A stretch of 64,000 nt of DNA from Sinorhizobium sojae CCBAU 05684 (GTDB taxonomy: Bacteria > Pseudomonadota > Alphaproteobacteria > Rhizobiales > Rhizobiaceae). A program made the translations under genes and the position numbers. This document shows, in pieces, positions 1 through 12,935 of this stretch. Position 1 is the stretch's first letter. Each line of letters starts with the position of its first letter. Under the pieces are notes generated by a model, which saw nothing but the letters and a program-made list of their open reading frames with translations, did no database searches and had not been told where the DNA came from. The stretch is from NCBI RefSeq assembly GCF_002288525.1, contig NZ_CP023067.1:1116001-1180000 (forward strand), in the 5' to 3' direction.

Positions 1-120
1 GCGTCATTTGCCGAGGGCGGAACGCTTCATCCCATGCTGATGGCGGAATGGCGTCAGGCGCTTGCCGAAGAGCGTGCCGAAAGTCTTCAAGAATTCATCG
101 AAAGTCGTGAGGGCCACTGA
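1..120 (+). CDS. C-terminal end of an unidentified protein (partial)
   Basis: Frame 1 is open from the first base to a TGA at 118-120 and encodes 39 residues ending in ESREGH. The composition is plausible for a real, mostly helical C terminus (EWRQALAEERAESLQEF). The gene enters from the left and its start is outside the window. I do not recognise the family. A 39-codon open stretch can occur by chance in GC-rich DNA, so confidence is limited. Confidence 0.3.
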   Translation, partial: ASFAEGGTLHPMLMAEWRQALAEERAESLQEFIESREGH

Positions 121-414
121 CGCGGGAGCGTATCCAGGTTTCTTGGTGGGGATTCCGGCCCCACTCGTCGCTTCTCGATAGAGATGGAGCCAGCTTGGGG
201 CCTCTGGCCCGAGCACCGCAGGATGATGCTTCAGAGGAACGCTTGGCTTCGGCGTCGGCAACCATTTCCGCGCAGACCTCATCGGGATGCGTTTCCTCCA
301 GACGAGCGTGTTGGGCGCCCCGTCCCGGGCGGACGTGACGTGCCGATCGCGTGCATTCTGCACAGGTCCACGAGGGGGCGATACTGCATGACGGAAAATG
401 AAGAACGACTTGGC
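121..414. other. Gap with no recognisable gene
   Basis: Open frames here on both strands are short and arginine/proline-rich, as expected for shadows in GC-rich DNA. I see no RNA gene, terminator or clear promoter. It lies between the incoming plus-strand gene and the decayed ATPase gene and may include remnants of the latter. Confidence 0.3.
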
Positions 415-1210
415 CTAGGCGGCTCTGACCTCCTCAAGAAGATCCGGATGCTTGTCCAATATCCGCCTCCAGGCCCTTGAGAAGGAGAGGGCTCCCGGCA
501 GCTCGCGGTGGAACCCGTCTTCCGATCATCCGGCTCTGCTCGCGAATGCGGATCGCCGCATCAAGGAAAGCGTTCGGGACACCAGGCGCACACGATCGAA
601 GGATCGAAGCGCCTGTACTGCTCCGAGGATTTCGGGCCGCCTCCCGGGCCGCCGCAAGCAGGGCGGTCGAAGCGTCGGCGGATTCGTCGGTCAGGCGATT
701 GAGGATCGATCCACGTCTCCAGAGAGATTGTGAATCCGATAGGGCTCCGATCCTCACGTGTCGTTCCCGATCAGCCCAGGAGAGGTTTCGCGCATGACCT
801 GTCGCCTGCGCGCGATCGGACATCAGGGGCCATGTCGGCTCCGGATCGCTTTCCACCTTGAGGTTCAGGCACAGAACGGTCTCCGATCCGCTGCCCGGCT
901 CATCCTCGACTTTGCGCGCCGCTTCATCGAAACTTCGCAGGTACATGCCGTAGACGTCGATCGACTTGAGTTCGTGCCCCAAGCTGAAGAGGATGATCGT
1001 GATGCTGATGGCGTTTCGATATCCAGCTTATGGAGATCCGCATCGGTGAACTGCACCGTCCATGGCGCCCCGAGACACAGGTCGATCGCATCCAGGATCG
1101 TGGATTTGCCGCTGTCACCTGATCAGGCAATTCAATCCGAGTGTGGGATACCACACCAAGTGCTTGATGCTGCGGAAGTTCTCAATCTCGATCATCCGGA
1201 TAGTAGCCAT
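415..1210 (-). pseudogene. Decayed AAA ATPase, OLD-endonuclease-like
   Basis: Reading the minus strand from ATG at 1210, the protein starts like a DNA-repair ATPase (IEIENFRSIKHL, then GLNCLI). The frame then breaks at the Walker A site: the next part, GDSGKSTILDAIDLCLG, is in another frame. A further shift follows before LKSIDVYGMYLRSFDEAARK and LNLKVESDPEPTWPLMSD. A third frame carries a plausible C terminus (WRRILDKHPDLLEEVRAA) ending at TAG 415-417. At least three frame changes and a length near 265 codons, far below the usual 500 or more, indicate an inactivated and internally deleted gene. The OLD-like assignment rests on the ENFRSI N terminus and P-loop. Confidence 0.6.
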
Positions 1211-1525
1211 GGGCCCGCCTGAAGAATCACTGATTTGGGAAGGTAGTAGTCCACGGCCCAACGGCGGCGGCAAGAAAGCTTCGACCGAGTTGTTCGACAG
1301 GCCAGAGAGCGGGGTGTATCGGAGGGAGCCGTACTCGTTTCATGTCATGCGTAGACCAAATGGTGGACGCCTCGACCTGCCCTGACGGACCTGTGTGCAG
1401 CGACGATAGCAACCCCGTCTCGTATGCCCGATATCTACTGCGATCCGCGTGATCCCGAGTTCGATGTCGATGATCGTGGACGGTGTGATCAGGACTTCGT
1501 CGAAATACGCACTATGGATTCTCAC
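1211..1525. other. Gap with no confident gene
   Basis: The minus strand keeps the same frame as the upstream nuclease-NTPase gene for 61 codons past its stop (a GTG directly follows the TGA at 1526-1528; translation includes AYFDEVLITPSTIIDIELG). This could be a former C-terminal extension, a small protein, or chance. No RNA gene, terminator or repeat is apparent. Confidence 0.3.
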
Positions 1526-3934
1526 TCAAGAACCGCTTGAAGACGCGGCCGAGGAGGCTTCGGGGTGAAGGGTTGGAAACCTTTTCATCGCTTCGATCAC
1601 AGGTCCGTCCAGCATTTCCGTTGCGAACGCAGCGTGATCCTCCGGGCCGGACTCGACAAGAAACTGGAGTGCGATCATGGACCGGTGAACAAGCGGCAGG
1701 GATCCGCGCCTGCATGCTTCCTCGAGCCAGGCGGACGCGTTCCGCCCTTCTCTTCTCAGGTAGCGGAACATCGCATAGGTGACTGCCTCGACTATCCCGG
1801 CCTGATGGCAGACGATTGAACCCGCACCCGGCACGTCGTGGCTCAGGACCGAATTGAACTGCATTTCGGGGCCGGGCTGCCGCAGGACTATGTCGGCGGA
1901 TCCAACTTCGAGCAGAATAATCGGATCGATCCTCTCCACCTCGCCGTCAATGTCTAATCCCGAAGGAATGCTCGCCAGGTGCGACAGGATCAGCCAGCTA
2001 TGGAAGTTCGAGTAGGTCGTGTCCAGGTCCTCGCCGTCCTCCCTGGCGATGAGGGTCTCGCGACCGCCCGCCCTCGCGACAATTGATCCGTCTTCTCGGA
2101 CATCCAGGTCGACACGGCCAGTCTCCTCCGAAAACATAGCAAGCTTCGCTCCGGGACTGAGGCTGTCGCGGGCGGGACGGTCCTCCAGCAGTGCGACGAC
2201 AAGTTCCCACGGCAGCCCCAAATCGTCCCGCATGGCTGCGTCGAACACTGCCTGCGCGCAGATCACGTCTCCCATCGGGATGTTGCTTGCCGCGCCCGCG
2301 AGCCATTCCGCGGCGTCCGAAGGGTTCGTCCGGCTTCTCCGCGAAAGCTCGACCGCGACTCGATCAGCCAGCTCGCTCGCCAGGAGTTCCGGCAGCCTGA
2401 CGGCAACGACGGCTTCACCGCTCTCATGGATTGTCGCTCGGAGATAACCACGCGCTATGAGGTCTGCGATCTGCGTGGCTCCCAGGCGACTGGCGAGCTT
2501 CTTCCTCCTGATCAGAAAGACGCCAAGCGACTCGAGTATGAGGGGGGAGGGGCGCTTTCTGTCCCAGGCTTCGTCCATGAAGGCTTCCGCGAGCTCCTTG
2601 AAGAGATACCGCAGCTCGGTGTCGCGGAACCTCATCCGCGCTTGTCCGATGAGGCCGAGGCTCAGCAAGGGGGGAAGGACGGCCATGAACTCGGGATTAT
2701 TATAGCTCGGACTTGCCAATATGTCTGACATCATGGAGCGGAGGAGCCACGGGAACCTCAGTTCACGCGCTAAATTTGCGCCGCGCATAAAATAGATGCG
2801 GCGGTTGCCGAGATTTTGTACCGCTGCGCGGAATTCGTCGTCGTCCAGATGACCCAGGGGGACGCGCTTCGCACGCCTGCCCAAGGGAGATGACGAGCGT
2901 CCGTTTGCCCCGCCCGTCAGCAGATCCGTCGCCGAGTCGTCGACGCTGACTACGACTCGAACCTTGCTTCCGAAGGAAGACGAGGTGAGATCCGTAAGTT
3001 CCTTCCGGAGATCCGACATTCCCGGATCGAACCCATCTACGGCGATCACAAGCGCAGGGGCGCTCTCTGAGTTCGATTGCTGAATGAGCCAGTGACGGGC
3101 TTCCGCTGTCGTGACAGGCCATGCGAGCTCGCGGCCAAAAGCGTCTGCGAGAGACTGGATTACGCCGCTTCCGCCAGCTTCGAGGAAGAGGGTGACGAAG
3201 TTCTCGTCGTCTCTGGTCTTCTCCACCAGCTCCCGCAGGACACTACTCTTTCCGATTAGCGGCGGGCCCTCCACGAGGACGAGACGATCACCGGCTGCGA
3301 GGTGAGCGAGCACCGCGATCGTGCTTTTCCTCTTCAGGAGGAAATTCGACTCGAACGGCAGGGAGTGGTCGCTTCCGGTCGAAGTTAGCTCCCCGATGAC
3401 TGATGCACTGACCTGCTCGACGGCCTGCCGCCAGATTGTCGGGTTTGTGCCCATCAACGTTTCTATCGCCCGAGCCACATCAGCTCTCGCAACGCGCGCT
3501 GCAGCCGTGACGATCCCGGTGAACTGGCTCTCGGACAGGGTTGCCCCATCGAGCGAACCGCCGTCATGGGTCCTGATGATCCGCACGTCGTGTCCGTTCG
3601 AGACGACCACCAGTGGCGCCATCGGATTCAGGACTCGGGCGTATGACAGCCCCTGGGCTTCATCGTCCGCGGTTAGAGGCAGTCCCGGACGCTTGAGTTC
3701 GAGCACGGCCAGGGGCGAGTTGCCATCGTAGAGAACGATGTCAGCGCGCCCTTCCTTGCGGTAGTCCGCGACGCCGTCCACCTCGATGTTGGCCCTGCCG
3801 AAATTGAAAGCGAACTTGATCTGGTGACGGACGCTGCCAGACGGCAGCCACGGGAATGCCCTAGCGATGGTCGCGTTCATGTTCCCTTCGTAGTCGGCTT
3901 CGGTAGGCGAGGTGGTGAGCTGCTTCGCGACCAT
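1526..3934 (-). CDS. HsdR_N-like nuclease fused to P-loop NTPase (possible defence protein)
   Basis: 802 residues. Residues about 30-125 resemble the N-terminal nuclease domain of type I restriction R subunits: RADIVLYD then LAVLELKRPG gives a PD-(D/E)XK pattern with D65, E79 and K81. A P-loop NTPase follows, Walker A GPPLIGKSS at 223-231 and a hydrophobic strand ending in Asp (ALVIAVDGFD, D300) as Walker B. The C-terminal half (about 450-800) is leucine/alanine-rich and probably helical repeats, with no helicase motifs, so it is not HsdR itself. The layout resembles STAND-type anti-phage sensors with a nuclease effector. ATG at 3934 has AAGGGA upstream. The C terminus (SSAASSSGS) is odd: an alternative frame gives RSLLGRVFKRFLSENP, so a recent frameshift is possible. 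Target and activation signal are unknown. Confidence 0.6.
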   Translation of the reverse strand: MVAKQLTTSPTEADYEGNMNATIARAFPWLPSGSVRHQIKFAFNFGRANIEVDGVADYRKEGRADIVLYDGNSPLAVLELKRPGLPLTADDEAQGLSYARVLNPMAPLVVVSNGHDVRIIRTHDGGSLDGATLSESQFTGIVTAAARVARADVARAIETLMGTNPTIWRQAVEQVSASVIGELTSTGSDHSLPFESNFLLKRKSTIAVLAHLAAGDRLVLVEGPPLIGKSSVLRELVEKTRDDENFVTLFLEAGGSGVIQSLADAFGRELAWPVTTAEARHWLIQQSNSESAPALVIAVDGFDPGMSDLRKELTDLTSSSFGSKVRVVVSVDDSATDLLTGGANGRSSSPLGRRAKRVPLGHLDDDEFRAAVQNLGNRRIYFMRGANLARELRFPWLLRSMMSDILASPSYNNPEFMAVLPPLLSLGLIGQARMRFRDTELRYLFKELAEAFMDEAWDRKRPSPLILESLGVFLIRRKKLASRLGATQIADLIARGYLRATIHESGEAVVAVRLPELLASELADRVAVELSRRSRTNPSDAAEWLAGAASNIPMGDVICAQAVFDAAMRDDLGLPWELVVALLEDRPARDSLSPGAKLAMFSEETGRVDLDVREDGSIVARAGGRETLIAREDGEDLDTTYSNFHSWLILSHLASIPSGLDIDGEVERIDPIILLEVGSADIVLRQPGPEMQFNSVLSHDVPGAGSIVCHQAGIVEAVTYAMFRYLRREGRNASAWLEEACRRGSLPLVHRSMIALQFLVESGPEDHAAFATEMLDGPVIEAMKRFPTLHPEASSAASSSGS

Positions 3935-4409
3935 GACAATGTTCCCTTAAGCCTGAGTTGCGTCCCAGGCGTTCTTGGCGACGGCTTGGATCCGTCTGAA
4001 AATCCGAGCGTGCATGTCGGTATTGGAGGAGCGTTCCGCAAGGCACGGCCGTCCGGCGTTCAGCGACCATTTCGTTCGATTTTTCACTTTTACACAGAGT
4101 AGCCGCCAAGGGCATCCTGAACGGTCAGGCCCATCTCTACGGCGGAGAGACTGCAAGACCTAGGCTCTCAGGCGCAAACCTCCGCGGCCTAACTATGTGC
4201 TTGAGATTATGGAGCAGCACCGCGGGAGCCTTGTCCGGCACCCGAAGGCTTCGAACCTGCGAACTTTGGAATCGGAGCCGAGCATGCCGGTTGCTGAGCC
4301 ATGGGAGCAACTGTCCCGGATCAGAGCCTGTCCGACCGTCAGGGATATGCAATCGAATCCTTGCGCACAATTGTTGACAACGGCGTCAGGTTGTCGCCTT
4401 TTCGAATCC
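3935..4409. other. Divergent intergenic region between nuclease-NTPase gene and XRE gene
   Basis: No coding sequence is convincing here. It must hold the promoters of the minus-strand gene starting at 3934 and of the plus-strand regulator at 4410. The only clear element is the GTTGACAACGGC site at 4373-4384. A stretch near 4250 resembles a tRNA T arm but does not fold into a tRNA. Confidence 0.5.
4373..4384 (+). promoter_or_regulatory. Site A: GTTGACAACGGC, candidate operator/-35 of the XRE gene
   Basis: The 12-mer GTTGACAACGGC contains the odd palindrome GTTG-A-CAAC and a perfect TTGACA -35 hexamer at 4374-4379. The identical 12-mer is found in the same orientation relative to transcription upstream of the FtsH-like operon (8172-8183). 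It lies only 25 bases before the ATG at 4410, so a transcript from it would have almost no leader. A role as autoregulatory operator of the XRE protein is inferred. Confidence 0.45.
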
Positions 4410-4697
4410 ATGGATTCGATCTCTGAAATCATGCGCGCGCTGAGGGGCGGACGCGCGCTGCTGGGCCTCAGCCAGGAGGAACTCGCGGAGCTTGCGGGCG
4501 TCAGCCGGCAGATCGTCGTGAGGATCGAAAAGGGCGAGAGCAACGTCCTGGTGGAGGCCGTCGAGAAGGTGCGCACGGCGCTCGAGGCCTCGGGCGTGGC
4601 GTTCATCGACGCCACGCGGGAGCACGGTCCGGGCGTCGCCATGGCGCGCCGCCCGTCCGCTGAGGACATGGTTCCTCAAGGATTCGGGGAAGGCTAG
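4410..4697 (+). CDS. Small XRE-family transcriptional regulator
   Basis: 95 residues from ATG at 4410; the frame is open further upstream but that part has no regulator-like sequence. A helix-turn-helix of the XRE type covers about residues 9-60 (LSQEELAELAGVSRQIVVRI, then EKGESN), followed by helices resembling those in small phage-type and HipB-like regulators. No ribosome-binding site is visible before the ATG, and the TTGACA at 4374-4379 is so close that the message may be leaderless. It is convergent with the FtsH-like gene and overlaps its end by 4 bases. It is the best candidate to bind the GACAACGG sites upstream of other island genes; this is inference. Confidence 0.75.
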   Translation: MDSISEIMRALRGGRALLGLSQEELAELAGVSRQIVVRIEKGESNVLVEAVEKVRTALEASGVAFIDATREHGPGVAMARRPSAEDMVPQGFGEG

Positions 4698-6643
4698 CTG
4701 GCGATCCCTTTCCCCAATCGGTTCGGCGCATGTCGCCGGACAATCGCCTGCACGTCCTCCGACTGAAGAAGCTCCCGGTCCAGCAGTTGCCCTGCCAGGG
4801 CCTCGACCGCAGCGAGATGACCCCTCACGATGGCCTTGGCCCGCGACAACTGCTCTGCAAGAATGCCGTCGATCTCTCTTCTCGCAGTCGCGGGAACTCC
4901 GCTGAGCCAGTTCATGCCGGGATAGTCGTCTTCCATCAAGAATGAGAGACTCCGCCCCATGCCGTAGCTGCAAACCATCCGCGTGGCGATCGAGGTCGCC
5001 CTGTGAAGATCGCTGCCGCGGCCTCCGCCCGCGCCGGCAGATCGCGTGCCGAGCAGGACCTCCTCCGCCGCAGCTCCTCCGAGCATCCTGCATATGTGCG
5101 CTTCCATCGAAGCCCGGGTTTCCATGTCTCCTGGCACGTCCAGATACCGCGTCATTCCCTGCACGGGCGCATCGGATGAGAACGTCCTGAACTGCTTGCG
5201 CATCGAGACGCTTGCCCTGCAGCCCGGCTGGAGCGCAAGTGCAACGACGGCATGCCCGCTCTCGTGGACCGCCACGCGGTGTGCGATTTGCGCAGGAAGT
5301 GTCTGAAGCGGTGGCAGCGCCTCGGCGACGTGGGCGGGTCCGGCCGGCTGCCGAGCCGCCCTGGCAAGTCGTCTTGCCTCCCTGGCCAGCTTCTCGAGAT
5401 CGGAACCGCTCCATGCCTTGAGGTCGGCGGCGATCCTCCGAAGCTCCTGGTCGTCGCCCGTGGCGCCCAGGTGGAAACGCAGTATCTCCGCGCGCTCGTC
5501 CGCATCCGGCAGATCCATTCTGACATGTCGTTCGATCCTGCCGCTTCGCAGGAGGGCGCGGTCAACCGCTTCCGGGAAGTTGGTGGCTGCGACCACCACG
5601 ATCCCCTGCCTCCCGTCGACGCCGTCGATACATTCCAGGAGCGAGTTCACGACCTGGGTCTGATAGCCGACATGATGGCCCGAGAATTTCGTTCTATCGC
5701 CGATCGAATCCAGCTCGTCCAGGAACACGATCGCCGGCTGCAATTCCCTGGCCTTCTCGAAGGTCGACCTCATCGCCGCAAGGAGATCCCCGAGATGTCC
5801 CCTGGCCTGCCATTTCGCGACCGACTCCGCTATCAGCGGGATGCCGCACATCTTCGCGAGAGCGCGGGCAAAGAGGGTCTTGCCAGTTCCGGGGGGGCCG
5901 TGGAGAAGGATTCCGCGATCGAGATCGGCCCAGGTGATCTCGCCTGACCGCGCACGCTCCAAGTCCTTGGCGAAGGAACGCGCCCAGGCCTTCACGTCCC
6001 TGTATCCGGGCAGTTCTTCCAGGCTGGGTGCGTCGTCCGCTGCGGTGCCAGACGCGGAGGAGCGGAGGATCCGCGCATGATCCGATGTGAGGCTGAATTT
6101 CGTGACGACCGGAGCCAGCATCACGACGTCGTTGCCGGCGAGAAGTTCCGCCGTGTCGGGCCGGATCGGGTTTCGGCCGAGCAGCGACCGGGCCGCCACG
6201 ATGTGCGCGGCCGAGGGCCGCGGCAGGTCGATTACCGCGTCGGCCGCCGCCGCCAGTTCTATCGGTAGGTCCTTTCTGTGTCTGGCGAGGACGAGGATCG
6301 CAGGAAACTTCCCGTAGGATCGAAGAAGGTCACTCCCTCCCGGCGTCGGCATTTTGTTCCGTGGCTTGGACTCGATGGAATGGACCAGCGCCCTGGGAGG
6401 GCGCGTCTCGGTCCAGTCCGGGAAGCGGCCGTTCACGAAAAGCTCGGTCGCCGCCTCGTAGATCCCCAGGTTGATCGCCGATTCCGCGATCAGCACGACG
6501 ATGGTCGGGCGCCCCCGCCTAAGTAGGTGCTGTGACCGCAACGCCCTGCCTACGCAGCAGTATGCCAGGAAAAGCACCGGCGACTGGCGGATCTTTCGAA
6601 ACTGGTCGGCGTCAAGCCTTCCCACTGAAGAGCTCTTCCCCAT
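4694..6643 (-). CDS. FtsH-like AAA+ ATPase / M41-type zinc protease without obvious membrane anchor
   Basis: 649 residues. An N-terminal region of about 235 residues shows no pair of transmembrane helices, unlike classical FtsH. The AAA+ module has Walker A GPPGTGKT (249-256), Walker B IVFLDELDSI (about 305-314) and an Arg-finger region RSGRIERHVRMDLPD. The peptidase has the zinc motif HESGH (460-464) and the usual third-ligand segment GRGSDLHRAT (D545). All catalytic residues are present. It should be an ATP-driven protease acting in the cytoplasm on unknown substrates. Its N terminus (FLAYCCVGRALR, then LRRGRPTIVVLIAES) resembles that of the preceding gene product (FLAYYGMRNALR, then IRRGPVIFVAP). 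GGAGAG precedes the ATG, inside the end of that gene: third gene of a tight operon. Confidence 0.8.
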   Translation of the reverse strand: MGKSSSVGRLDADQFRKIRQSPVLFLAYCCVGRALRSQHLLRRGRPTIVVLIAESAINLGIYEAATELFVNGRFPDWTETRPPRALVHSIESKPRNKMPTPGGSDLLRSYGKFPAILVLARHRKDLPIELAAAADAVIDLPRPSAAHIVAARSLLGRNPIRPDTAELLAGNDVVMLAPVVTKFSLTSDHARILRSSASGTAADDAPSLEELPGYRDVKAWARSFAKDLERARSGEITWADLDRGILLHGPPGTGKTLFARALAKMCGIPLIAESVAKWQARGHLGDLLAAMRSTFEKARELQPAIVFLDELDSIGDRTKFSGHHVGYQTQVVNSLLECIDGVDGRQGIVVVAATNFPEAVDRALLRSGRIERHVRMDLPDADERAEILRFHLGATGDDQELRRIAADLKAWSGSDLEKLAREARRLARAARQPAGPAHVAEALPPLQTLPAQIAHRVAVHESGHAVVALALQPGCRASVSMRKQFRTFSSDAPVQGMTRYLDVPGDMETRASMEAHICRMLGGAAAEEVLLGTRSAGAGGGRGSDLHRATSIATRMVCSYGMGRSLSFLMEDDYPGMNWLSGVPATARREIDGILAEQLSRAKAIVRGHLAAVEALAGQLLDRELLQSEDVQAIVRRHAPNRLGKGIAS

Positions 6644-6646
6644 CGT

Positions 6647-7414
6647 TCAGATCTCTCCGTCCACGCTCCATCGTCTCAGCGAGTCCTCGGCCACAGACGA
6701 TGGGCGGCCCAAGAGGTACCAGCGCTGCGACGAGCGGGCCATTCCTTGCTGAAGCGAGAAAAGGTGGAGGGGAGCGGTGAAGCTCATCGAGCTGCGCTGC
6801 CCGTGATCCTCGTCGCTGCCGCCGGGATATGAGATGAATCCCACCAGCGTCGGCACGATGAACTTCTCGATGAACCATTCCTCGACGACCGGCGTCTGGC
6901 TGGCGTCGAGGTTGGGGAGGGACCTGCTGTTGGTCACGCGTCGGAGGTCCCCCGCCAGATGCTCGACGGCATTGGCGTGGCGGGCGATCGACGCCCATGA
7001 AGAGTTCGCCCGTTTTTCACCGATTCTAAGCATTGTGCGCACACTCCCATCAGCGTGTCGGATCGCGGTTGAATTCCCAAGTTGTGATTTCGGATGATCG
7101 AGAGCTTGTCGCGATCGAAGGTGCAAGGATCTTCGTTCCGCGGCTTCGATGCTTTCCGGGCATCCGAAGGCATGGATGCGCTTACCGCCAGGGACCCTGT
7201 CATGGTCCCGGCCGTCCGCGGTGAGATGGTCGGCGGCGACGCGGCATTTTTGGCGTGGAGCGACGAAGATGACCGGTCCCCTCCGGATCTGCTCTCTGAG
7301 CAGCAGGGATGGCGAGCGGCGGAGTGCGTTTCGCATTCCGTAATACGCCAGGAACACGGCGGCGCGATACCGGGAAGGTTTGCGGAACTCCGAGTTGTGC
7401 AGCCGGGAACGCAT
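6647..7414 (-). CDS. Uncharacterised protein, second gene of FtsH-like operon
   Basis: 255 residues; I do not recognise a named family. The N terminus (FLAYYGMRNALRRSPSLL, then RRGPVIFVAP) matches the start of the downstream FtsH-like protein, suggesting a shared small domain. The C terminus (QQGMARSSQRWYLLGRP) matches the C terminus of the upstream 99-residue protein (AQGVARTLNRWYRLGRP). The protein thus links both operon partners by sequence. Its ATG follows the upstream TGA by one base (TGACATG) and its own stop lies 3 bases before the next start, so translation is coupled. The middle is arginine-rich and of lower complexity. It may be an adaptor or substrate-delivery factor for the protease; this is inference. 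Confidence 0.6.
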   Translation of the reverse strand: MRSRLHNSEFRKPSRYRAAVFLAYYGMRNALRRSPSLLLREQIRRGPVIFVAPRQKCRVAADHLTADGRDHDRVPGGKRIHAFGCPESIEAAERRSLHLRSRQALDHPKSQLGNSTAIRHADGSVRTMLRIGEKRANSSWASIARHANAVEHLAGDLRRVTNSRSLPNLDASQTPVVEEWFIEKFIVPTLVGFISYPGGSDEDHGQRSSMSFTAPLHLFSLQQGMARSSQRWYLLGRPSSVAEDSLRRWSVDGEI

Positions 7415-7415
7415 G

Positions 7416-7715
7416 TCAGTTCCTTTCCGACCCGTGGGGCCGGCCCAGGCGGTACCAGCGGTTCAGTGTGCGGGCCACGCCCTGCGCAGTATTGATATGG
7501 AACACCTGGGTCGAGAAGCAGCGATGCCCGTCGGCAATGCGCGGGTGTCCGGTGACGATGCCCGTCAGCCCCGCCGCGGGCTGCGGGACGAGAGCGTACT
7601 CGTCTAGGAATGGCGCGCCGGCCAGCATCCTGGGATCGAATCCTTCGGAAACAGCCTTTCGGATGTCATCTGTGAGGCGGGCGAAGGTCTCGGCGCCGGC
7701 GAATGTGTAGTGCAT
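7416..7715 (-). CDS. Small protein, first gene of FtsH-like operon (possibly DUF6634-like)
   Basis: 99 residues from ATG at 7715, chosen because AGGACA stands about 7 bases upstream; the frame stays open to 8078 but the added part is arginine/alanine-rich and unlike a protein. Begins MHYTFAGAETFARLTDDIRK and ends with the motif QGVARTLNRWYRLGRP, which recurs at the C terminus of the next protein. The pattern ARxxxRWYxLGRP reminds me of small proteins annotated as DUF6634 in alphaproteobacterial mobile elements, but I cannot verify this. No enzyme motif is visible. Confidence 0.65.
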   Translation of the reverse strand: MHYTFAGAETFARLTDDIRKAVSEGFDPRMLAGAPFLDEYALVPQPAAGLTGIVTGHPRIADGHRCFSTQVFHINTAQGVARTLNRWYRLGRPHGSERN

Positions 7716-8332
7716 GGGGTCTGTCCTGTTCGGTTGGGTTTTGGATGCTGTCTGTTGCCGGAGTGCGTCAGCGGACTCGCCGGCCTTGGCGGAACTTGCA
7801 AGAATCGTCGGTTGGGGACGGGCCGCGTGGAGCTTGCCAAGCCGACGGGTCCATTTCCGCCGCCCAGACGCGCCGTCCGCCGACGACGCAAGCTGGCTCG
7901 CGGCGGCGCGGCAGATCAACGCGCCTGGCCGGCGACCGCCTGGAAGGTGCACTGTCCGGCCAACGCCTGGGGCACGGCGCCTTTCCGATGCGAGCGGCGA
8001 CGCACGAGGGCGGATGCCTGGAGCCTTGGAAGAATTCGTTGCGGATGCGCCAAACCCGGTCATGTCGGCGGGCTCCATGGTGAAACGATCGAATCACGAT
8101 CAAAAAGATCACGTCATGAGCAAAATGCTTACCACGCGATCTATTGTCAACACAAGCCGCCTCGTTGACCTGCCGTTGTCAACACTTCTCCCGCCGGCGC
8201 GGCGGCCGCCCTAACACGCACGCCGCGGGTCTTCGCGGAGACAGTGACCAATCGCGGCCATGGGGTCGTGATGTAGCCCTGTCTGCCGGCCGCCGCCCTG
8301 CAAAGCGGCGGCCGATATGACGCGGCGAACGC
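7716..8332. other. Intergenic region with the FtsH-operon promoter
   Basis: About 600 bases without a convincing gene. The stretch 8144-8183 carries a cluster of GTTGAC/GTCAAC sequences, including the exact 12-mer shared with the XRE promoter. A transcript from there to the ATG at 7715 would have a leader over 400 nt, so either the leader is regulatory or another promoter lies closer. Open frames in 7716-8112 look like shadows. Confidence 0.5.
8144..8183 (-). promoter_or_regulatory. Site B: cluster of GTTGAC elements upstream of FtsH-like operon
   Basis: Read on the minus strand, GTTGACAACGGC (8172-8183) is identical to site A. Further along comes GGTCAAC in inverse orientation and then GTGTTGACAA at 8144-8153, a direct repeat of the GTGTTGACAA at 8176-8185 with a 32-base period, about three helical turns. 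Two copies contain TTGACA -35 hexamers; the -10 positions are weak (CATTTT 17 bases after the proximal one). The spacing suggests cooperative binding of a repressor over a promoter. Confidence 0.45.
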
Positions 8333-9334
8333 CTAGGCCGCGGAGTGGCTGGCGGAACCGCTGCCGCCGGGTCCCTTCCGCATGATTTCATCCAGGGCTG
8401 CCGCATGCCTGTCGAGCGCGTCGCGGATGGTCTTCGTATCGCAGCGTGGTGGTGCAACCCACCGCCATTTCGGCGCTCTCAGGTCTGGCGCGTTGGATCC
8501 CACGGCTCGCAATGCATCGTGAAACGGCAGGCTCCCGTCCTCCAACAGCATGTTTATGACGGTGCGGCGCAGATCCATCCATAGCCACGTGGGCGTCGGC
8601 GAATCCGGGGTATGTCCCAGGCTGCTGCTCATCCGCCGACCCAGCGCCGACCGCATCCGCTCCAGGTGAACAAGCGGCGTTCGCCCCTGGGTCGCGCTGA
8701 AGACGAAATCCCCCGCGTCGGCAGGCAGATTGGCGCGCATGTCAGCCAGCCTGCTGGCGAATACGTCCGAAAGGGCTATCACGACTGGGTGCGCCCCTTC
8801 TTTCGGAGCCCTCCATATCTTCCGGCCCAGATCCAGCTCCGTCCATCTCATTCGTCCGAGTTTGGAAGGAAGCTGCCCTGTCAGGGCCAGCGCTTCGGCC
8901 AACGCCCGTTGGGGCGGCTCGAGCGTTTCCGCGGCGGCGAGGTAGGCGTGCAGTTCCTCGTCGTCCAGGTGGCGATCGCGGGGCCGGATTGGGCCGGCGA
9001 TGTAACGGGGCAGTATGTAGAGGGCGGGGTTCGACCGGAGCCCGAATACCTCGCGCCGCTCGGGCTGCATCGCCCAGACGAAGAAGGCACGGATCTTCTG
9101 GGTGCACGATCGCGCCAAAGCAGGTCGGCCGCGCAGGGAGAACAGGAAACGCATGAGCTCGCCATCCGTGACGTCCGCGATCGGCTTCTCCAAAATGGGG
9201 TTGCTTGCAGGGTCGAGAAGATATCGTTCGTGAAATCTGGCGTCCTGGTCGGCGCTGCGGTTGTGCCGGCGTGTGGGGAACTGCTCAATATAGATCCTGA
9301 CGGTTGCTGCGAAGGTGTATGTCTTCACGGTCAT
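8333..9334 (-). CDS. Catalytically dead tyrosine-recombinase-like protein
   Basis: 333 residues from ATG at 9334, preceded by GGAAAGGAAGCGAT; the longer upstream frame is noncoding leader. It aligns by eye with the island integrase from the core-binding domain on (TFAATVRIYIEQF against TFASVMEDYLAYI). The integrase's N-terminal arm-binding domain is absent. Box I reads TGQLPSKLGRMRW instead of TGQRRGVVAGMRW, losing the catalytic Arg. Box II reads WMDLRRT instead of WHDVRRT, losing the His. There is no Tyr after box II, so no nucleophile. Strand-exchange activity is therefore not expected. The fold and DNA contacts may persist, suggesting a regulator, a decoy or an accessory factor in excision. 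The gene is intact and keeps its leader, so it is probably expressed rather than a pseudogene. Confidence 0.75.
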   Translation of the reverse strand: MTVKTYTFAATVRIYIEQFPTRRHNRSADQDARFHERYLLDPASNPILEKPIADVTDGELMRFLFSLRGRPALARSCTQKIRAFFVWAMQPERREVFGLRSNPALYILPRYIAGPIRPRDRHLDDEELHAYLAAAETLEPPQRALAEALALTGQLPSKLGRMRWTELDLGRKIWRAPKEGAHPVVIALSDVFASRLADMRANLPADAGDFVFSATQGRTPLVHLERMRSALGRRMSSSLGHTPDSPTPTWLWMDLRRTVINMLLEDGSLPFHDALRAVGSNAPDLRAPKWRWVAPPRCDTKTIRDALDRHAAALDEIMRKGPGGSGSASHSAA

Positions 9335-9405
9335 ATCGCTTCCTTTCCTGTGTGATGGATGGACTTCGAAATCGGGAATCCTGCACGATCGAGCTAGACA
9401 ACGGG
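9335..9405 (-). promoter_or_regulatory. Leader of the integrase-like gene with site C
   Basis: The 70 bases before the ATG match the leader of the active integrase block by block: CCGTTGTC, then TCCCGATTTCGAAGTCCA (integrase: TCCCGATTCCGCAGTCCA), then AGGAAAGGAAGCGA. Site C (9394-9405, plus strand CTAGACAACGGG) overlaps the stop codon of the upstream 311-residue gene. Read toward the gene, TTGTCT and a TTCCCG 17 bases on are possible -35/-10 positions. Confidence 0.5.
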
Positions 9406-10329
9406 GCCGCCGCCTGGCCTTCGGAGGAAGTAGCCGGCATGCGGCAGTGTCGGCGCTTCGGCTTCGAGTTCGCCGACGATCGCCTGCGCCATCCGGCCGA
9501 GCGAATTCCGGCGCGCCTCTATCCATTCCCGCCGCCACGGCGCAGGATGGTGCGGGGAGTAGGCCACGAGCTTCAGCCGGCCGGCGGGAGCGCGCTGCCA
9601 TTCCGTCCAGGTGATCCCATCGACCAGTCTAGTGGACGAGGCGCGGTCGAACTTGCCATTGCCCATGTAGCGCATCTCGACCTCCTTGCTGATCTCGAGG
9701 ATGGCGAGTCCGACCGGAACTCCCGAGATGGTCGCGATCGTCGGCGCAACGGGTGACCACAGAGCAAGAGGGATGTGGCTGGTCCTGTCGGGCGGCCGGC
9801 TCCAGTTCTCCAGCGCCGGCCGGATGAAGCCGCTTCTCGGCTCTATGCGCACCGTATGGCCGCGGGCCTCGAACGCGTTGAACAGGCCGTTCGCGAACGA
9901 CAGGGCGCTTTCCAGCATCTCCGCAGAGATCGTTAGATCGATCGCGTTGAGGCTCCGCGTCGACAGATGTTTCCGGTCACGGCCGTCGCCTGCCCGCCCG
10001 AAGATAACCCGCGCAATGTGCACGAGAGGGTGGCTCCCGTCGCGTGGTGGAAAGGACCAGATGTCGCGACGATAGAACGGCTTGATGGGGGGCAGGCCCT
10101 GTCCCCCTTTCCTCCAGTGGGACGGAAGGCCCGGACGGGCGGGAGGCAGCGGCGGCGGGGGAGGAGCTGTTCCAGCCGCCCGCAGCACCCACCATCCCCT
10201 GCCAGGCCGGGGGACATCAAGAGCCGTGCAGACCCGGCACAGATAGCTATCCGAGACCCCGAGGTGCGCGGCGGCAGCCTTGCCCGGCCCGGCCCAGACC
10301 AGCGTGTAGAGTTCCTCGCGCGATATCAT
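9394..10329 (-). CDS. Uncharacterised protein translationally coupled to the integrase
   Basis: 311 residues. The N terminus (SREELYTLVWAGPGKAAAAH, then LGVSDSYLCRVCTALDVPRP, then GRGWW) is a conserved module I know from hypothetical proteins of mobile elements (pattern SREELYxLVW...GxSDxxLxxxCxxxxxPxPxxGxW), which looks like a helix-turn-helix fold. A proline stretch (about 52-66) links it to a C-terminal domain of unknown type with several Trp residues. Its ATG overlaps the integrase stop (ATGA) and uses GAAGGGAG within the integrase end. The coupling suggests it helps control integration or excision, for instance as a directionality factor, but the size is large for that. No catalytic motif is seen. 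Confidence 0.65.
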   Translation of the reverse strand: MISREELYTLVWAGPGKAAAAHLGVSDSYLCRVCTALDVPRPGRGWWVLRAAGTAPPPPPLPPARPGLPSHWRKGGQGLPPIKPFYRRDIWSFPPRDGSHPLVHIARVIFGRAGDGRDRKHLSTRSLNAIDLTISAEMLESALSFANGLFNAFEARGHTVRIEPRSGFIRPALENWSRPPDRTSHIPLALWSPVAPTIATISGVPVGLAILEISKEVEMRYMGNGKFDRASSTRLVDGITWTEWQRAPAGRLKLVAYSPHHPAPWRREWIEARRNSLGRMAQAIVGELEAEAPTLPHAGYFLRRPGGGPVV

Positions 10330-11720
10330 GGCGCGCTCCCTTCATCGAAAGCCTCGTCGTCGTGCTCCCAGTCTGCGACCGTGCAGGTTCCTTCCTCCAC
10401 CTTCCGCAGCATCTCGGACCACTTGTTGAAGCCCCGGCGGATCTCCGCTCTATACTTGTGAAGATTGTAGACGCGGACGATGCCGGTCTGGCCGTGCCCG
10501 ATCGCCGTCTCCGCCACTTCTGTCCGGCCCGTGATAGGCTCGAGGTGGGTCCGGACCGTCCGCCTGACGTCGTGCCAGATCCAGCCCTCCATACATGCCA
10601 CGCCGAGCGTTGCGAGGATCTCAAGCATCAGGCGCTCGAACCTGCCGGTCGCGATCTCGCTTTCGTTCTGCTCGTTGTTCTTCTTCGCGATTCTCAGATC
10701 GCTGAAATGGTCGATCGGCCTCTGGCCATTGGTCGTGCTGAACACGAAGTCCCCGTGGCCCTCCGGCTGGCTCTCCTTGATGGCAAGGAGCAGTTCGACC
10801 ACCCGGTTGGAGAGCGGCACCTTGTGTGAGTTGTCCACCTTGGAGGTGCGGCCGGGCCGCGCGCCGGGCGCCTTGGTGCCCGGTATGATCCATAGCCTGC
10901 GCGCCAGGTTGATCTGCGACCAGCGCATTCCCGCGACAACGCCCCTGCGCTGGCCGGTCTCGATCAGGACCCTGAGGCAGGGTCCGTAGGGATAGGGCGT
11001 GGCGGTGGATGCCATCAGAAAGGCGCGCGCCTCCTCGTATTCGAAGACCCGCTGGCGGGGATCGATCCGGAGCCCCAGCCGCTTGGCCTTGAGGTACTCG
11101 ATCGGGTTCCGGTCGAGCCCGATGGCCGCGCTTATGTCCGGATGCATCGTCCAGCCAAAGAACGTCTTGAGCTGCACGAAGCAATGGAAAGCGGTTGTCG
11201 GGAATTTCAGATTGATCTCCTTGACCAGGGAGACCACGTCCGCGGCAGTGACCTCCGAGATTGGCTTCTTCAGCCACCTGTTTTTCTTGGGGTCCAGGAT
11301 GTTCCTTCTGATGAAGGCGATGTCCTGCGCCGCGTTGAGGTTCTTCTCGCGTCCGGGAATGTATGCGAGATAGTCTTCCATGACCGAGGCGAAGGTGCTC
11401 CGGAGGCGGAGCGCCTCCAGCCTCCTTGCCTCCGCCACCTCGATCGCGGGGTCGACTCCATTCCCGACCTTCTTGTTCCACTTGTCCGCCTCGACGCGCG
11501 CGGCTTCGGTTGTCATTTCCGAAAACTCGCCGAGCTTGCGGCGGGAGGGCTGGCTGGCCGGACCGCCGAAGCGGGCGACCAGCATGAAGACCTTCTTCTT
11601 CGATCCGATCCTGACGATCAGGTTCTCCACGGAGGAGTCGTAGATGTCATACCGCCCGCTCGAATTGGGGGGAGGCTCCTGGGCTGCGATGAGGGCGTCC
11701 GTCAGATGCTGCCTGTTCAT
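10326..11720 (-). CDS. int: Tyrosine-type site-specific integrase, P4 family
   Basis: 464 residues from ATG at 11720 (GGAAAGGAAG just upstream; an ATG at 11771 is part of the leader). N-terminal arm-binding domain of the DUF4102 type (about 1-90), SAM-like core-binding domain (about 95-200), and catalytic domain with R in TGQRRGVVAGMRW, HDVRR, IGHGQTG and the nucleophile Tyr in RVYNLHKY. All catalytic residues are present. It lies about 230 bases from the tRNA-Trp fragment and is oriented into the island, the normal arrangement for integrases that target a tRNA 3' end. It should catalyse recombination between the island ends for integration and, with a directionality factor, excision. Confidence 0.92.
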   Translation of the reverse strand: MNRQHLTDALIAAQEPPPNSSGRYDIYDSSVENLIVRIGSKKKVFMLVARFGGPASQPSRRKLGEFSEMTTEAARVEADKWNKKVGNGVDPAIEVAEARRLEALRLRSTFASVMEDYLAYIPGREKNLNAAQDIAFIRRNILDPKKNRWLKKPISEVTAADVVSLVKEINLKFPTTAFHCFVQLKTFFGWTMHPDISAAIGLDRNPIEYLKAKRLGLRIDPRQRVFEYEEARAFLMASTATPYPYGPCLRVLIETGQRRGVVAGMRWSQINLARRLWIIPGTKAPGARPGRTSKVDNSHKVPLSNRVVELLLAIKESQPEGHGDFVFSTTNGQRPIDHFSDLRIAKKNNEQNESEIATGRFERLMLEILATLGVACMEGWIWHDVRRTVRTHLEPITGRTEVAETAIGHGQTGIVRVYNLHKYRAEIRRGFNKWSEMLRKVEEGTCTVADWEHDDEAFDEGSAP

Positions 11721-11790
11721 TTCGCTTCCTTTCCTTGGTGTTGGACTGCGGAATCGGGAAATTCTGGGCAACGGAACTGGACAACGGCTT
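11721..11790 (-). promoter_or_regulatory. Integrase leader with site D
   Basis: Contains CTGGACAACGGC on the plus strand at 11777-11788 (site D), then, toward the gene, TCCCGATTCCGCAGTCCA and AGGAAAGGAAGCGA before the ATG. The same three blocks in the same order precede the dead integrase paralogue. A TTGTCC hexamer within site D has TTTCCC 17 bases further on as a weak promoter candidate. Confidence 0.5.
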
Positions 11791-11946
11791 CGCTGGCGGC
11801 GGCATCCCGTTGTTCGGTCAGTGAAATCCGGAAATGAAAATAAGTCAATGATACCAATGACTTAGGGAACTGAATGAAACCGCTTGAAACACGCGCGAAC
11901 ATGATGCTACAAGCCGGTTCACAGGTGCAGGCGGGAGCGGAGGTGA

Positions 11947-11991
11947 CTCCAAAACCGCAGGTCGGGGGTTCGAGCCCCTCTGCCCCTGCCA
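11947..11991 (+). other. Right attachment site: 3' half of tRNA-Trp
   Basis: The 45 bases run from the anticodon loop (CTCCAAAA, anticodon CCA) through the 3' anticodon strand ACCGC, the T arm (GGGGG, TTCGAGC, CCCTC) to the acceptor strand TGCCCCT, discriminator G and CCA. No matching 5' half exists upstream: the expected GCGGT anticodon strand is replaced by AGGTGA, and no acceptor strand or D arm is present. It is therefore an att repeat, not a working tRNA. The full gene should be reconstituted at the other island end, left of the window. The crossover is probably in or near the anticodon loop. Confidence 0.85.
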
Positions 11992-12085
11992 GCCACTCCA
12001 TTCTTGCCTCATTGTTCCAATTGGTCAGAATGTCGGGGCGGGCGGCTTGGCCGTCTTAGATATTCACAAAAAAGACTGATTGGCT

Positions 12086-12114
12086 CTTGTGGTTTTCAGA
12101 ATCGGTCTTTATGT
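12086..12114 (+). promoter_or_regulatory. Candidate secE promoter
   Basis: CTTGTG (12086-12091), a 17-base spacer and TTATGT (12109-12114), about 70 bases before the secE start. The -35 is identical to that of the tRNA-Leu promoter candidate in this window. It matters because the island has separated secE from any promoter upstream of tRNA-Trp. Confidence 0.4.
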
Positions 12115-12186
12115 AGGGTCCAAACAGACACGCGGTGCGTGGGGCTGAAAGATCGGCTTTACGCGCCGTAATGGCGTGAGCATTCA

Positions 12187-12387
12187 ATGGCATCCAAAAC
12201 GAATCCGTTTACGTTTCTGCAGCAGGTACGCTCCGAAACGTCGAAAGTGACTTGGCCTTCGCGGCGCGAGACGACGATCTCGACGCTGATGGTCTTCGTC
12301 ATGGTCTCTCTTGCCGCCGCCTTCTTCTTTGGTGCGGACCAGCTGTTGGGCTGGCTGATGAGCCTCATCCTAAACGTTGGCGCTTGA
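12187..12387 (+). CDS. secE: Preprotein translocase subunit SecE
   Basis: 66 residues, the short single-span form usual in alphaproteobacteria. The amphipathic N-terminal part (QQVRSETSKVTWPSRRET) carries the conserved basic TWPSRRE motif, and one transmembrane helix follows (about residues 32-60). It stabilises SecY in the SecYEG channel of the inner membrane. It heads the secE-nusG-rplK run, with nusG starting 17 bases after its stop, and is the first core gene beyond the island. Confidence 0.95.
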   Translation: MASKTNPFTFLQQVRSETSKVTWPSRRETTISTLMVFVMVSLAAAFFFGADQLLGWLMSLILNVGA

Positions 12388-12404
12388 TTTGGGTGGAGAG
12401 TAGC

Positions 12405-12935
12405 ATGGCTGCGCGCTGGTATATCGTTCACGCCTATTCGAATTTCGAGAAGAAGGTGGCCGAATCCATCGAGGAGAAGGCCAGGCAGAAGGGTCTGACG
12501 CATCTGTTCGAGAAGATTCTCGTGCCGACCGAGAAGGTCGTAGAGATACGTCGCGGGCGCAAGGTTGATTCTGAGCGCAAGTTTTTCCCCGGCTATGTTC
12601 TCGTTCGCGCCGATCTGACGGATGAGGCCTATCACCTCATCAAGAACACGCCGAAGGTCACCGGTTTCCTAGGGACGGACAGCAAGCCTGTGCCGATTCC
12701 GGATCATGAGGCGGATCGCATTCTCGGTCAGGTCCAGGATGGCGTCGAGCGTCCGAAGCCGTCCGTGTCCTTCGAGATCGGGGAACAGGTTCGCGTTTCG
12801 GATGGCCCGTTCGCCTCCTTCAACGGCATCGTTCAGGATGTCGATGAGGAGCGGTCGCGCTTGAAGGTCGAAGTGTCGATCTTCGGCCGCGCGACCCCTG
12901 TCGAGCTGGAATACGGCCAGGTCGAAAAGGTCTGA
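12405..12935 (+). CDS. nusG: Transcription termination/antitermination protein NusG
   Basis: 176 residues from ATG at 12405, with GTGGAGAG upstream; the frame is open earlier but overlaps secE. The NGN domain (RWYIVHAYSNFEKKVAESIE) binds the RNA polymerase clamp helices. The C-terminal KOW domain (FEIGEQVRVSDGPFASFNG) binds Rho or ribosomal S10. It links transcription elongation with translation and Rho termination, fitting its place next to ribosomal and polymerase genes. Confidence 0.97.
   Translation: MAARWYIVHAYSNFEKKVAESIEEKARQKGLTHLFEKILVPTEKVVEIRRGRKVDSERKFFPGYVLVRADLTDEAYHLIKNTPKVTGFLGTDSKPVPIPDHEADRILGQVQDGVERPKPSVSFEIGEQVRVSDGPFASFNGIVQDVDEERSRLKVEVSIFGRATPVELEYGQVEKV

Follow-up and report, generated by a model that had tools for sequence, protein, structure and literature searches.

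In the 64,000-nucleotide stretch of Sinorhizobium sojae CCBAU 05684 that was analysed (contig NZ_CP023067.1, positions 1,116,001 to 1,180,000; hereafter the window), the minus strand between 4694 and 7715 carries three open reading frames (ORFs) of 99, 255 and 649 amino acids (aa), here called D1, M and P, which stand at the coordinates given in a preliminary description of this DNA. D1, the first gene (7416–7715), encodes a protein of the DUF6634 family (PF20339; E 9.1e-7, 29.3 bits, above the Pfam gathering cut-off of 27) whose own protease has been deleted, and P (4694–6643) is a soluble AAA+ and M41 zinc protease with the Pfam domains AAA and Peptidase_M41. Comparison with relatives identifies the ORF between them, M, as a chance read-through, in which residues 1–127 are a frameshifted protease stump and residues 128–255 a second DUF6634 protein. 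The stump (7034–7414, minus strand) is the relic of a first protease and derives from an N-terminal domain of the type found in S. glycinis, whereas the second DUF6634-type protein (D2, 128 aa, 6647–7033, minus strand) has its probable start at the ATG at 7033–7031. On the plus strand, a gene for a 95-aa helix-turn-helix regulator of the XRE family (4410–4697; HTH_3, E 1.2e-10) runs towards P, and the stop codons of the two genes overlap.

A second DUF6634-protease copy of the same genome lies at the left end of the tRNA-Trp island whose right end holds the window cassette, and consists of genes for a 99-aa DUF6634 protein with 45% identity to D1 and, behind it, a 618-aa protease with 37% identity to P; this two-gene layout suggested that M is composite. 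In this regard, the operon of S. glycinis (L019/L064), in which an intact protease follows a gene resembling D1 (69%), aligns at the DNA level with D1 and the first ~107 codons of M (636 bp, 71%), and the match runs to window position 7093 with a 2-nt gap that shifts the frame within M. The N-domain of that intact protease shares 53% identity with the start of M but only 26% with P. The part of M from Met128 onwards, on the other hand, matches at 60% over 129 aa a free-standing DUF6634 protein of S. chiapasense (L015/L044), whose gene is followed by a protease that, at 54%, was the nearest to P in that search. In both of the closest relatives found, E. adhaerens SD006 (L062) and S. shofinae (L063), the stump and D2 lie in different frames, and the deletions and indels of the stump differ from those of the window copy. 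Moreover, no whole-length match to M was found in 40 relatives apart from the own genome, and the ORF as a whole scores 13.1 against PF20339, under the cut-off of 27.

The preliminary description had pointed to sequence patterns shared between the three ORFs, and these are exact: ARxxxRWYxLGRP stands in D1 and M and FLAYxxxxxALR in M and P, each occurring exactly twice in the six frames of the 64 kb, whereas RRGxxxxV, although present as claimed, is commoner, with five occurrences. The sharing also reflects true homology, as D2 matches a DUF6634 profile built from rhizobial sequences without the D2 rows (E 3e-9, Z set to 1000) and the N-part of M matches a protease N-domain profile (E 2.3e-6, same Z). 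What does not hold is the three-protein complex drawn from the patterns, in which the 255-aa middle protein would bridge the small protein and the protease. The exact motifs and the fact that M is open in this genome speak for such a complex, but it has to face the different frames, indels and stops of both close relatives, the 2-nt frame change relative to the intact relative, the missing whole-length match and stump dN/dS values of 1.01, 0.76 and 0.61, and it is regarded as extremely improbable.

The ratios of nonsynonymous to synonymous substitution (dN/dS), obtained by the Nei-Gojobori method with codon-bootstrap 95% confidence intervals (CI) for the window pairs only, separate the pieces of the locus. 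For the stump they amount to 1.01 (CI 0.59–1.81) between the window and L062, 0.76 (0.39–1.46) between the window and L063 and 0.61 between L062 and L063, so that it looks unconstrained by this measure, whereas D1, D2 and P look constrained, with values of 0.17–0.28. D1, 89–90% identical to its counterparts in L062 and L063, gave 0.23 (CI 0.10–0.50) and 0.17 (0.07–0.34) for the window pairs and 0.18 between the two relatives; D2, 81–84% identical to its counterparts, gave 0.23 and 0.25 for the window pairs (upper bound 0.44) and 0.28 between the relatives; and P, 82% identical to that of L062, gave 0.17 with L062 (upper bound 0.22). In the trees, D1 groups with the DUF6634 protein of S. glycinis L064 (support 0.91) and the stump with the protease of the same locus (0.93), while D2 and P go with the DUF6634 protein (1.0) and the protease (0.91) of S. 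chiapasense L015. The frames, the dN/dS values and the trees together lead to the conclusion that the three copies diverged only after two lineages had been joined in tandem and the bulk of the first protease had been lost by deletion. The tandem stage itself, with two cassettes side by side, would have preceded the deletion; no adjacent pair of protease N-domain matches, as expected for an intact ancestor of the order D1, first protease, D2, second protease, appeared among 37 places in 394 genomes.

Two observations weigh against this account of selection. The stump compared with the intact L064 gene gives a dN/dS of only 0.29–0.38, which is expected because most of that distance predates the decay, and the constraint on D1 is computed from 99 codons and three sequences, with part of the divergence possibly older than the loss of the first protease. 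A dead stump and broken relatives would also fit decaying debris with no present function, yet the purifying selection on D1, D2 and P and the recurrence of the cassette across genera make that explanation very improbable. The broken relatives comprise a same-genus locus (L183, G001:C1:2260627–2261049) with a protease 93% identical in DNA to the one of S. glycinis but interrupted by an internal stop, with no DUF6634 gene within 1.5 kb, and the shortened P of S. shofinae. In the latter genome (L063:2132–4404) a third DUF6634 gene comes after the truncated P, and after it an ORF of 595 codons that belongs to the 518-aa AAA type, so that this kind of truncation has occurred here a second time.

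AAA-M41 enzymes are ATP-driven zinc proteases, and those of the FtsH type are known as membrane housekeeping enzymes. P matches AAA at E 6.7e-31 and Peptidase_M41 at E 4.3e-22, and its catalytic motifs are intact: Walker A at residue 249, Walker B, HESGH (HExxH at 460) and the third-ligand Asp545. By hydropathy, which is not a dedicated predictor, no segment of P is hydrophobic enough for a membrane anchor, the best 19-residue Kyte-Doolittle mean being 1.45 (1.1–1.9 in 22 aligned relatives), as against 2.4 in an FtsH-type protein of the same genome (L003), one of two further AAA-M41-like matches elsewhere in it (the other being L004). As an AAA-M41 enzyme, P should be a soluble ATP-driven zinc protease, and the earlier statement that a complete AAA+ and HESGH protease without anchors is encoded here agrees with these data. 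The N-terminal domain, roughly residues 1–200, is family-specific. That the enzyme is an island-borne version distinct from the housekeeping one is likewise borne out, with relatives of its N-domain in only 17 of 151 genomes of the same family and a score against FtsH_fam (TIGR01241) of 211.9 bits for a cut-off of 600.

Among those 151 genomes (presumably Rhizobiaceae), the 17 with the protease N-domain carry it at 22 places, and 37 carry DUF6634, at 59 places. A DUF6634 gene lies directly upstream on the same strand at 10 of the 11 proteases with E<1e-29, the exception being G514; among the 11 weaker ones, a single protease has DUF6634 within ~1 kb, with a metallophosphoesterase gene in between, and near the weaker protease of G049:C8 there is a weak DUF6634 match (E 3.3e-5; 4e-6 in another search). 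A larger draw of 394 genomes contained the protease N-domain at 37 places in 31 genomes, and 16 of the 30 loci examined there had DUF6634, and 14 an XRE gene, within 1.5 kb; at places with E<1e-29, DUF6634 was present in 14 of 18. In the class at large DUF6634 is rare (6 of 385 genomes, the own one included); two genomes of the family, G532 and G556, have 7 and 5 matches. Moreover, the trees of DUF6634 and protease mirror each other (r 0.83 over 24 pairs, a value reached by 0 of 5000 permutations). Judged by these genomes, the recurrent unit is an XRE regulator plus DUF6634 plus an FtsH-like protease; the conserved association of three genes proposed earlier thus survives as the DUF6634-protease pair, and not as the 255-aa M, which is not conserved as one frame.

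Several features limit how closely the two proteins may be tied. Proteases of the best clade without a neighbouring DUF6634 include G661 (a match without the start of the N-domain), G001 (internal stop) and two complete-looking ones, G514 and G678; among the weaker loci examined, 10 of 15 lack DUF6634 and 5 have it; and four loci (L053, L148, L150, L151) carry the protease N-domain with no DUF6634 in 11–18 kb. Intact-looking proteases of this kind indicate that DUF6634 is not needed by every relative and speak against a strict antidote. Finally, joint travel in one cassette would give mirrored trees even without contact between the proteins.

On the side of DUF6634, for which the predicted structure (predicted local distance difference test score 90.6) has one long helix followed by six strands, a same-strand AAA+ gene within 3.5 kb is of full length at 43 of 58 loci and partial at 7, while the other 8 gave no match at the thresholds used, which leaves 15 without an intact AAA+ partner; contig ends truncate at least two of these 15, L080 and L146, and a weaker AAA-like match is present in L138, which detracts from the count. 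The partners show several architectures: single-chain AAA-M41 enzymes, split ATPase and M41 peptidase genes, AAA proteins without M41 (515–521 aa, in L076, L078 and L144) and phosphoesterase cassettes. The split form occurs in L134, L135, L137, L144 and L145, with an AAA ATPase of ~600–725 aa and an M41-type peptidase of ~260–400 aa by ORF length, and the DUF6634 gene lies between the two genes in all but L144, where it precedes both (Pfam domains were checked in L135, L137 and L144). A calcineurin-like metallophosphoesterase gene accompanies DUF6634 and protease in L029 (621–1427), L149 (4312–5136), L138 (identified by eye) and L045 (annotated), and lies between them in L029 and L149. Tandem DUF6634 genes upstream of one enzyme are seen in the window, in L062 and in L068, the first of the L068 pair being weak (E 6.8e-6).

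This variety is relevant for an adaptor model, according to which DUF6634 binds the N-domain of the protease and delivers phage or plasmid proteins to it, D1 being kept since it gives the surviving protease a broader range of targets. Co-inheritance and the mirror trees, the presence of DUF6634 beside AAA+ enzymes of several architectures including split genes, and the tandem DUF6634 genes before one enzyme all agree with it, and proteases without DUF6634 are easier to explain than under an antidote. The 8 of 58 loci with no local AAA+ partner (L146 and L138 among them, with the reservations just given) fit it less well, but an orphan DUF6634 could serve another protease in trans, a point that suits an adaptor equally. 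Adaptor function is accordingly a real possibility, if one short of probable.

The XRE gene of the window has counterparts, convergent as well, in L062 (89% protein identity), in S. chiapasense L015/L049 (80%) and in L063 (76%). Genes of this one family occur within 2.5 kb at 42 of 59 DUF6634 loci (at least one of which is a repeat, L054 being L082, while L071 offers only ~1.5 kb upstream) and at 29 of the 40 with a protease or ATPase match, in comparison with a single match, inside a 572-aa ORF, in 20 control regions. Usually the regulator is divergent and upstream of DUF6634, whereas in the window lineage it is convergent and downstream; the previously suggested XRE link therefore stands as regards adjacency and recurrence, with the regulator at the 3' end and not upstream. 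No XRE gene of this family was found at the second copy of the own genome (L051), and a search of window 4000–8400 for sigma-70-like promoters gave no match.

As for mobility, a blastn comparison of window 1–12500 with the 14.3-kb locus of L062 found only 4343–7799 in common at E 1e-10 (83.7% DNA identity), which delimits the cassette. Other pairs of loci likewise share mainly the cassette, namely L073/L075 (2.6 kb, 91%), L065/L090, L069/L072 and L076/L077 (Ferirhizobium/Neorhizobium, 91%), whereas L065/L070, L084/L088, L071/L051 and L076 with L081 or L085 share more of the surroundings. From these comparisons the unit moves as a cassette of ~2.5–3.5 kb and recurs across genera. In S. sojae the 76.9-kb island that holds it at its right end is delimited by two copies of a 43-bp direct repeat from the tRNA-Trp 3' end: the right copy is at 11949–11991 (plus strand), and the left one belongs to the intact tRNA-Trp gene at G000:C1:1051026–1051068, outside the window. 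A tyrosine integrase (10326–11771, minus strand; Phage_integrase E 6.7e-11, Arm-DNA-bind_3 E 6.3e-10) adjoins the right repeat. It is part of a stretch at 8333–11771 on the minus strand in which two tyrosine recombinase-like genes surround a gene for a 311-aa protein of no known family, with overlapping ends; this pair adjoins the tRNA-Trp repeat, and its 422-aa member matches only under the Pfam cut-offs. The second copy (L051), together with an adjacent methylase region, is common to S. sojae and Rhizobium sp. L43 (L071).

The surroundings of the cassettes were searched for defence genes with PADLOC families. From 22 DUF6634-protease loci, 154 ORFs called by a simple rule were reduced to 120 scanned proteins by removing 21 proteases and DUF6634 proteins and 13 redundant entries, and for the control 10 genomes supplied 20 regions at round coordinates, with 200 ORFs, of which the same filters left 194 and 119, the first few per region, were scanned. 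At E 1e-10 the flanking proteins matched 135 families and the control proteins 7. Strong matches among those listed were MkoA (E 6e-243), RT_UG17, SduA, PtuA and BrxB, one protein each, and in L073 the cassette is flanked by PtuA and MkoA homologues. In the own island, a Druantia II-like set stands beside the second copy (L061:3469–9459, L061:17–1531 and L051:13659–15521; G000:C1 ~1056658–1068959, outside the window), with DruE2 (E 0), a DruF2-like protein and a C5 methylase, and the island further carries PDC-S73 (Mrr + nSTAND3), a DpdF-like HNH helicase and an SMC-type ATPase. An association with known defence genes was thus found both in the flanks and in the own island. Beside the cassette, window 1526–3934 (minus strand) encodes an 802-aa protein with HSDR_N and an AAA_22-like domain that matches phrog_26510 at E 5.6e-103; no PADLOC model was found for it at 1e-6, and it is possibly another defence gene.

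Against this, the family count is inflated, one methyltransferase alone matching 46 families; the control scan covered 119 of the 194 proteins; 5 of 10 larger flanking proteins scanned had no match; and the link to defence is one of neighbourhood only, in islands that carry many cargo genes. Nevertheless, the defence-rich neighbourhoods fit the defence or toxin-control role envisaged at the outset, which is plausible.

The same setting bears on an addiction module in the manner of IetAS, where the protease would be the toxin, DUF6634 the antidote, and the effect to stabilise the tRNA-Trp island instead of fighting phages. The location in a mobile island that has an integrase and direct repeats suits this explanation, and there are precedents in pairs of AAA-ATPase and subtilase: one source describes them as functional toxin-antitoxin systems on SGI1, with the closest relative on pTiC58 of Agrobacterium (PMC5006074), and another reports them in mycoplasmas (PMC8562856). 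However, defence genes surround the cassettes, ATPase and protease form one chain here, no subtilase was detected among the proteins scanned singly with Pfam, and the resemblance to IetA is limited to the generic AAA domain, all of which makes an addiction module unlikely.

The other role proposed at first, a superinfection system, and with it a phage gene, was rejected: no close phage homologue of DUF6634 was found in viral_contigs (113 pattern matches, zero confirmed), in 50,697 phage records (no relatives) or among PHROGs (none for D1 or D2), which also deprives a defence role of a phage homologue pointing to the trigger. The AAA-M41 part of P does match phage families, most strongly phrog_30773 (E 3.2e-55, residues 240–644), and P gave 129 matches in the phage records, none across more than 80% of its length, the best 15 of the 129 having 29.5–34.5% identity and 50–62% coverage. 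A known defence model was rejected as well, as PADLOC has none for D1 or M and gives for P only generic AAA matches (IetA, TRIP13, mad8). No solved structure matched DUF6634 or the protease N-domain by sequence at E up to 1. Among the papers searched, none names DUF6634, and in the excerpts retrieved there was no description of a soluble M41 defence system.

Altogether, sequence comparison establishes the two lineages, the dead stump, the constraint on D1, D2 and P, the recurrent linkage, the mobility of the cassette and the defence genes around it, and on this basis the locus is, on balance, probably a mobile XRE-DUF6634-protease cassette derived from two tandem lineages, with the first protease deleted, that serves for defence or as a toxin-antidote module, P being restrained or aimed by DUF6634. 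In such a sequence of events, two cassettes of different lineages would have come to lie in tandem and a deletion would have taken nearly all of the first protease. The remaining enzyme may form a soluble ATP-driven chamber protease whose family-specific N-domain docks DUF6634; this private N-domain and the linkage of the genes make DUF6634 a likely partner of P. DUF6634 would keep P in check or pick its substrate, and the XRE protein would repress the cassette. Phage infection or the arrival of a rival element might then upset the balance, and the freed P could degrade a phage or host protein and halt replication, by abortive infection or by removal of a substrate. Restraint by an antidote is slightly preferred over an adaptor because D1 is constrained after the loss of its protease and DUF6634 recurs without an intact enzyme. 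A more far-reaching and rather doubtful proposal is that these cassettes represent a family of protease-based defence or toxin-antidote systems that has so far gone undescribed: DUF6634 would restrain a soluble FtsH-type protease, and orphan DUF6634 proteins, D1 and others, would be kept as immunity against incoming sister cassettes.

The window thereby offers a natural experiment, a small partner that appears to be under selection after its own protease was deleted, and DUF6634 gains a firm context: an AAA+ partner, mostly an FtsH-like protease, often XRE-linked, on mobile cassettes in defence islands. If the module acts as proposed, a soluble and mobile FtsH-type protease working with a small partner of its own would bring ATP-dependent zinc proteolysis into the repertoire of defence or addiction.

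In comparison with known systems, P resembles FtsH (AAA-M41, TIGR01241) in having AAA+ followed by M41, with Walker A/B, HExGH and the third-ligand Asp in the same order, but it differs by hydropathy in the absence of transmembrane anchors, and also in its N-domain, its score (212 bits for a cut-off of 600), its sporadic distribution and its location on an island. As in the XRE-regulated toxin-antitoxin modules (Y4mF/HipB-like, TIGR03070), a small XRE protein stands beside a small gene and an enzyme, although the regulator, at 43.7 bits, is under the cut-off of 71.65 and the cassette has no known toxin domain. DUF6634, whose Pfam cut-off D1 passes, is a family without assigned function. With IetAS, first described in Agrobacterium, a relative of the host, the cassette shares an AAA+ protein plus a protease on mobile elements, and the best PADLOC model for the ATPase domain of P is IetA, the resemblance being confined to the generic AAA domain. 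IetAS has separate ATPase and subtilase genes, whereas P is a single chain with a zinc M41 domain and the cassette adds DUF6634 and XRE; by its domain make-up, P is not an IetAS member. The precedent of AAA and protease pairs on mobile elements nonetheless makes a defence role plausible, and the cassette is best filed as a variant of the AAA+ protease-based conflict module and not as something categorically new.

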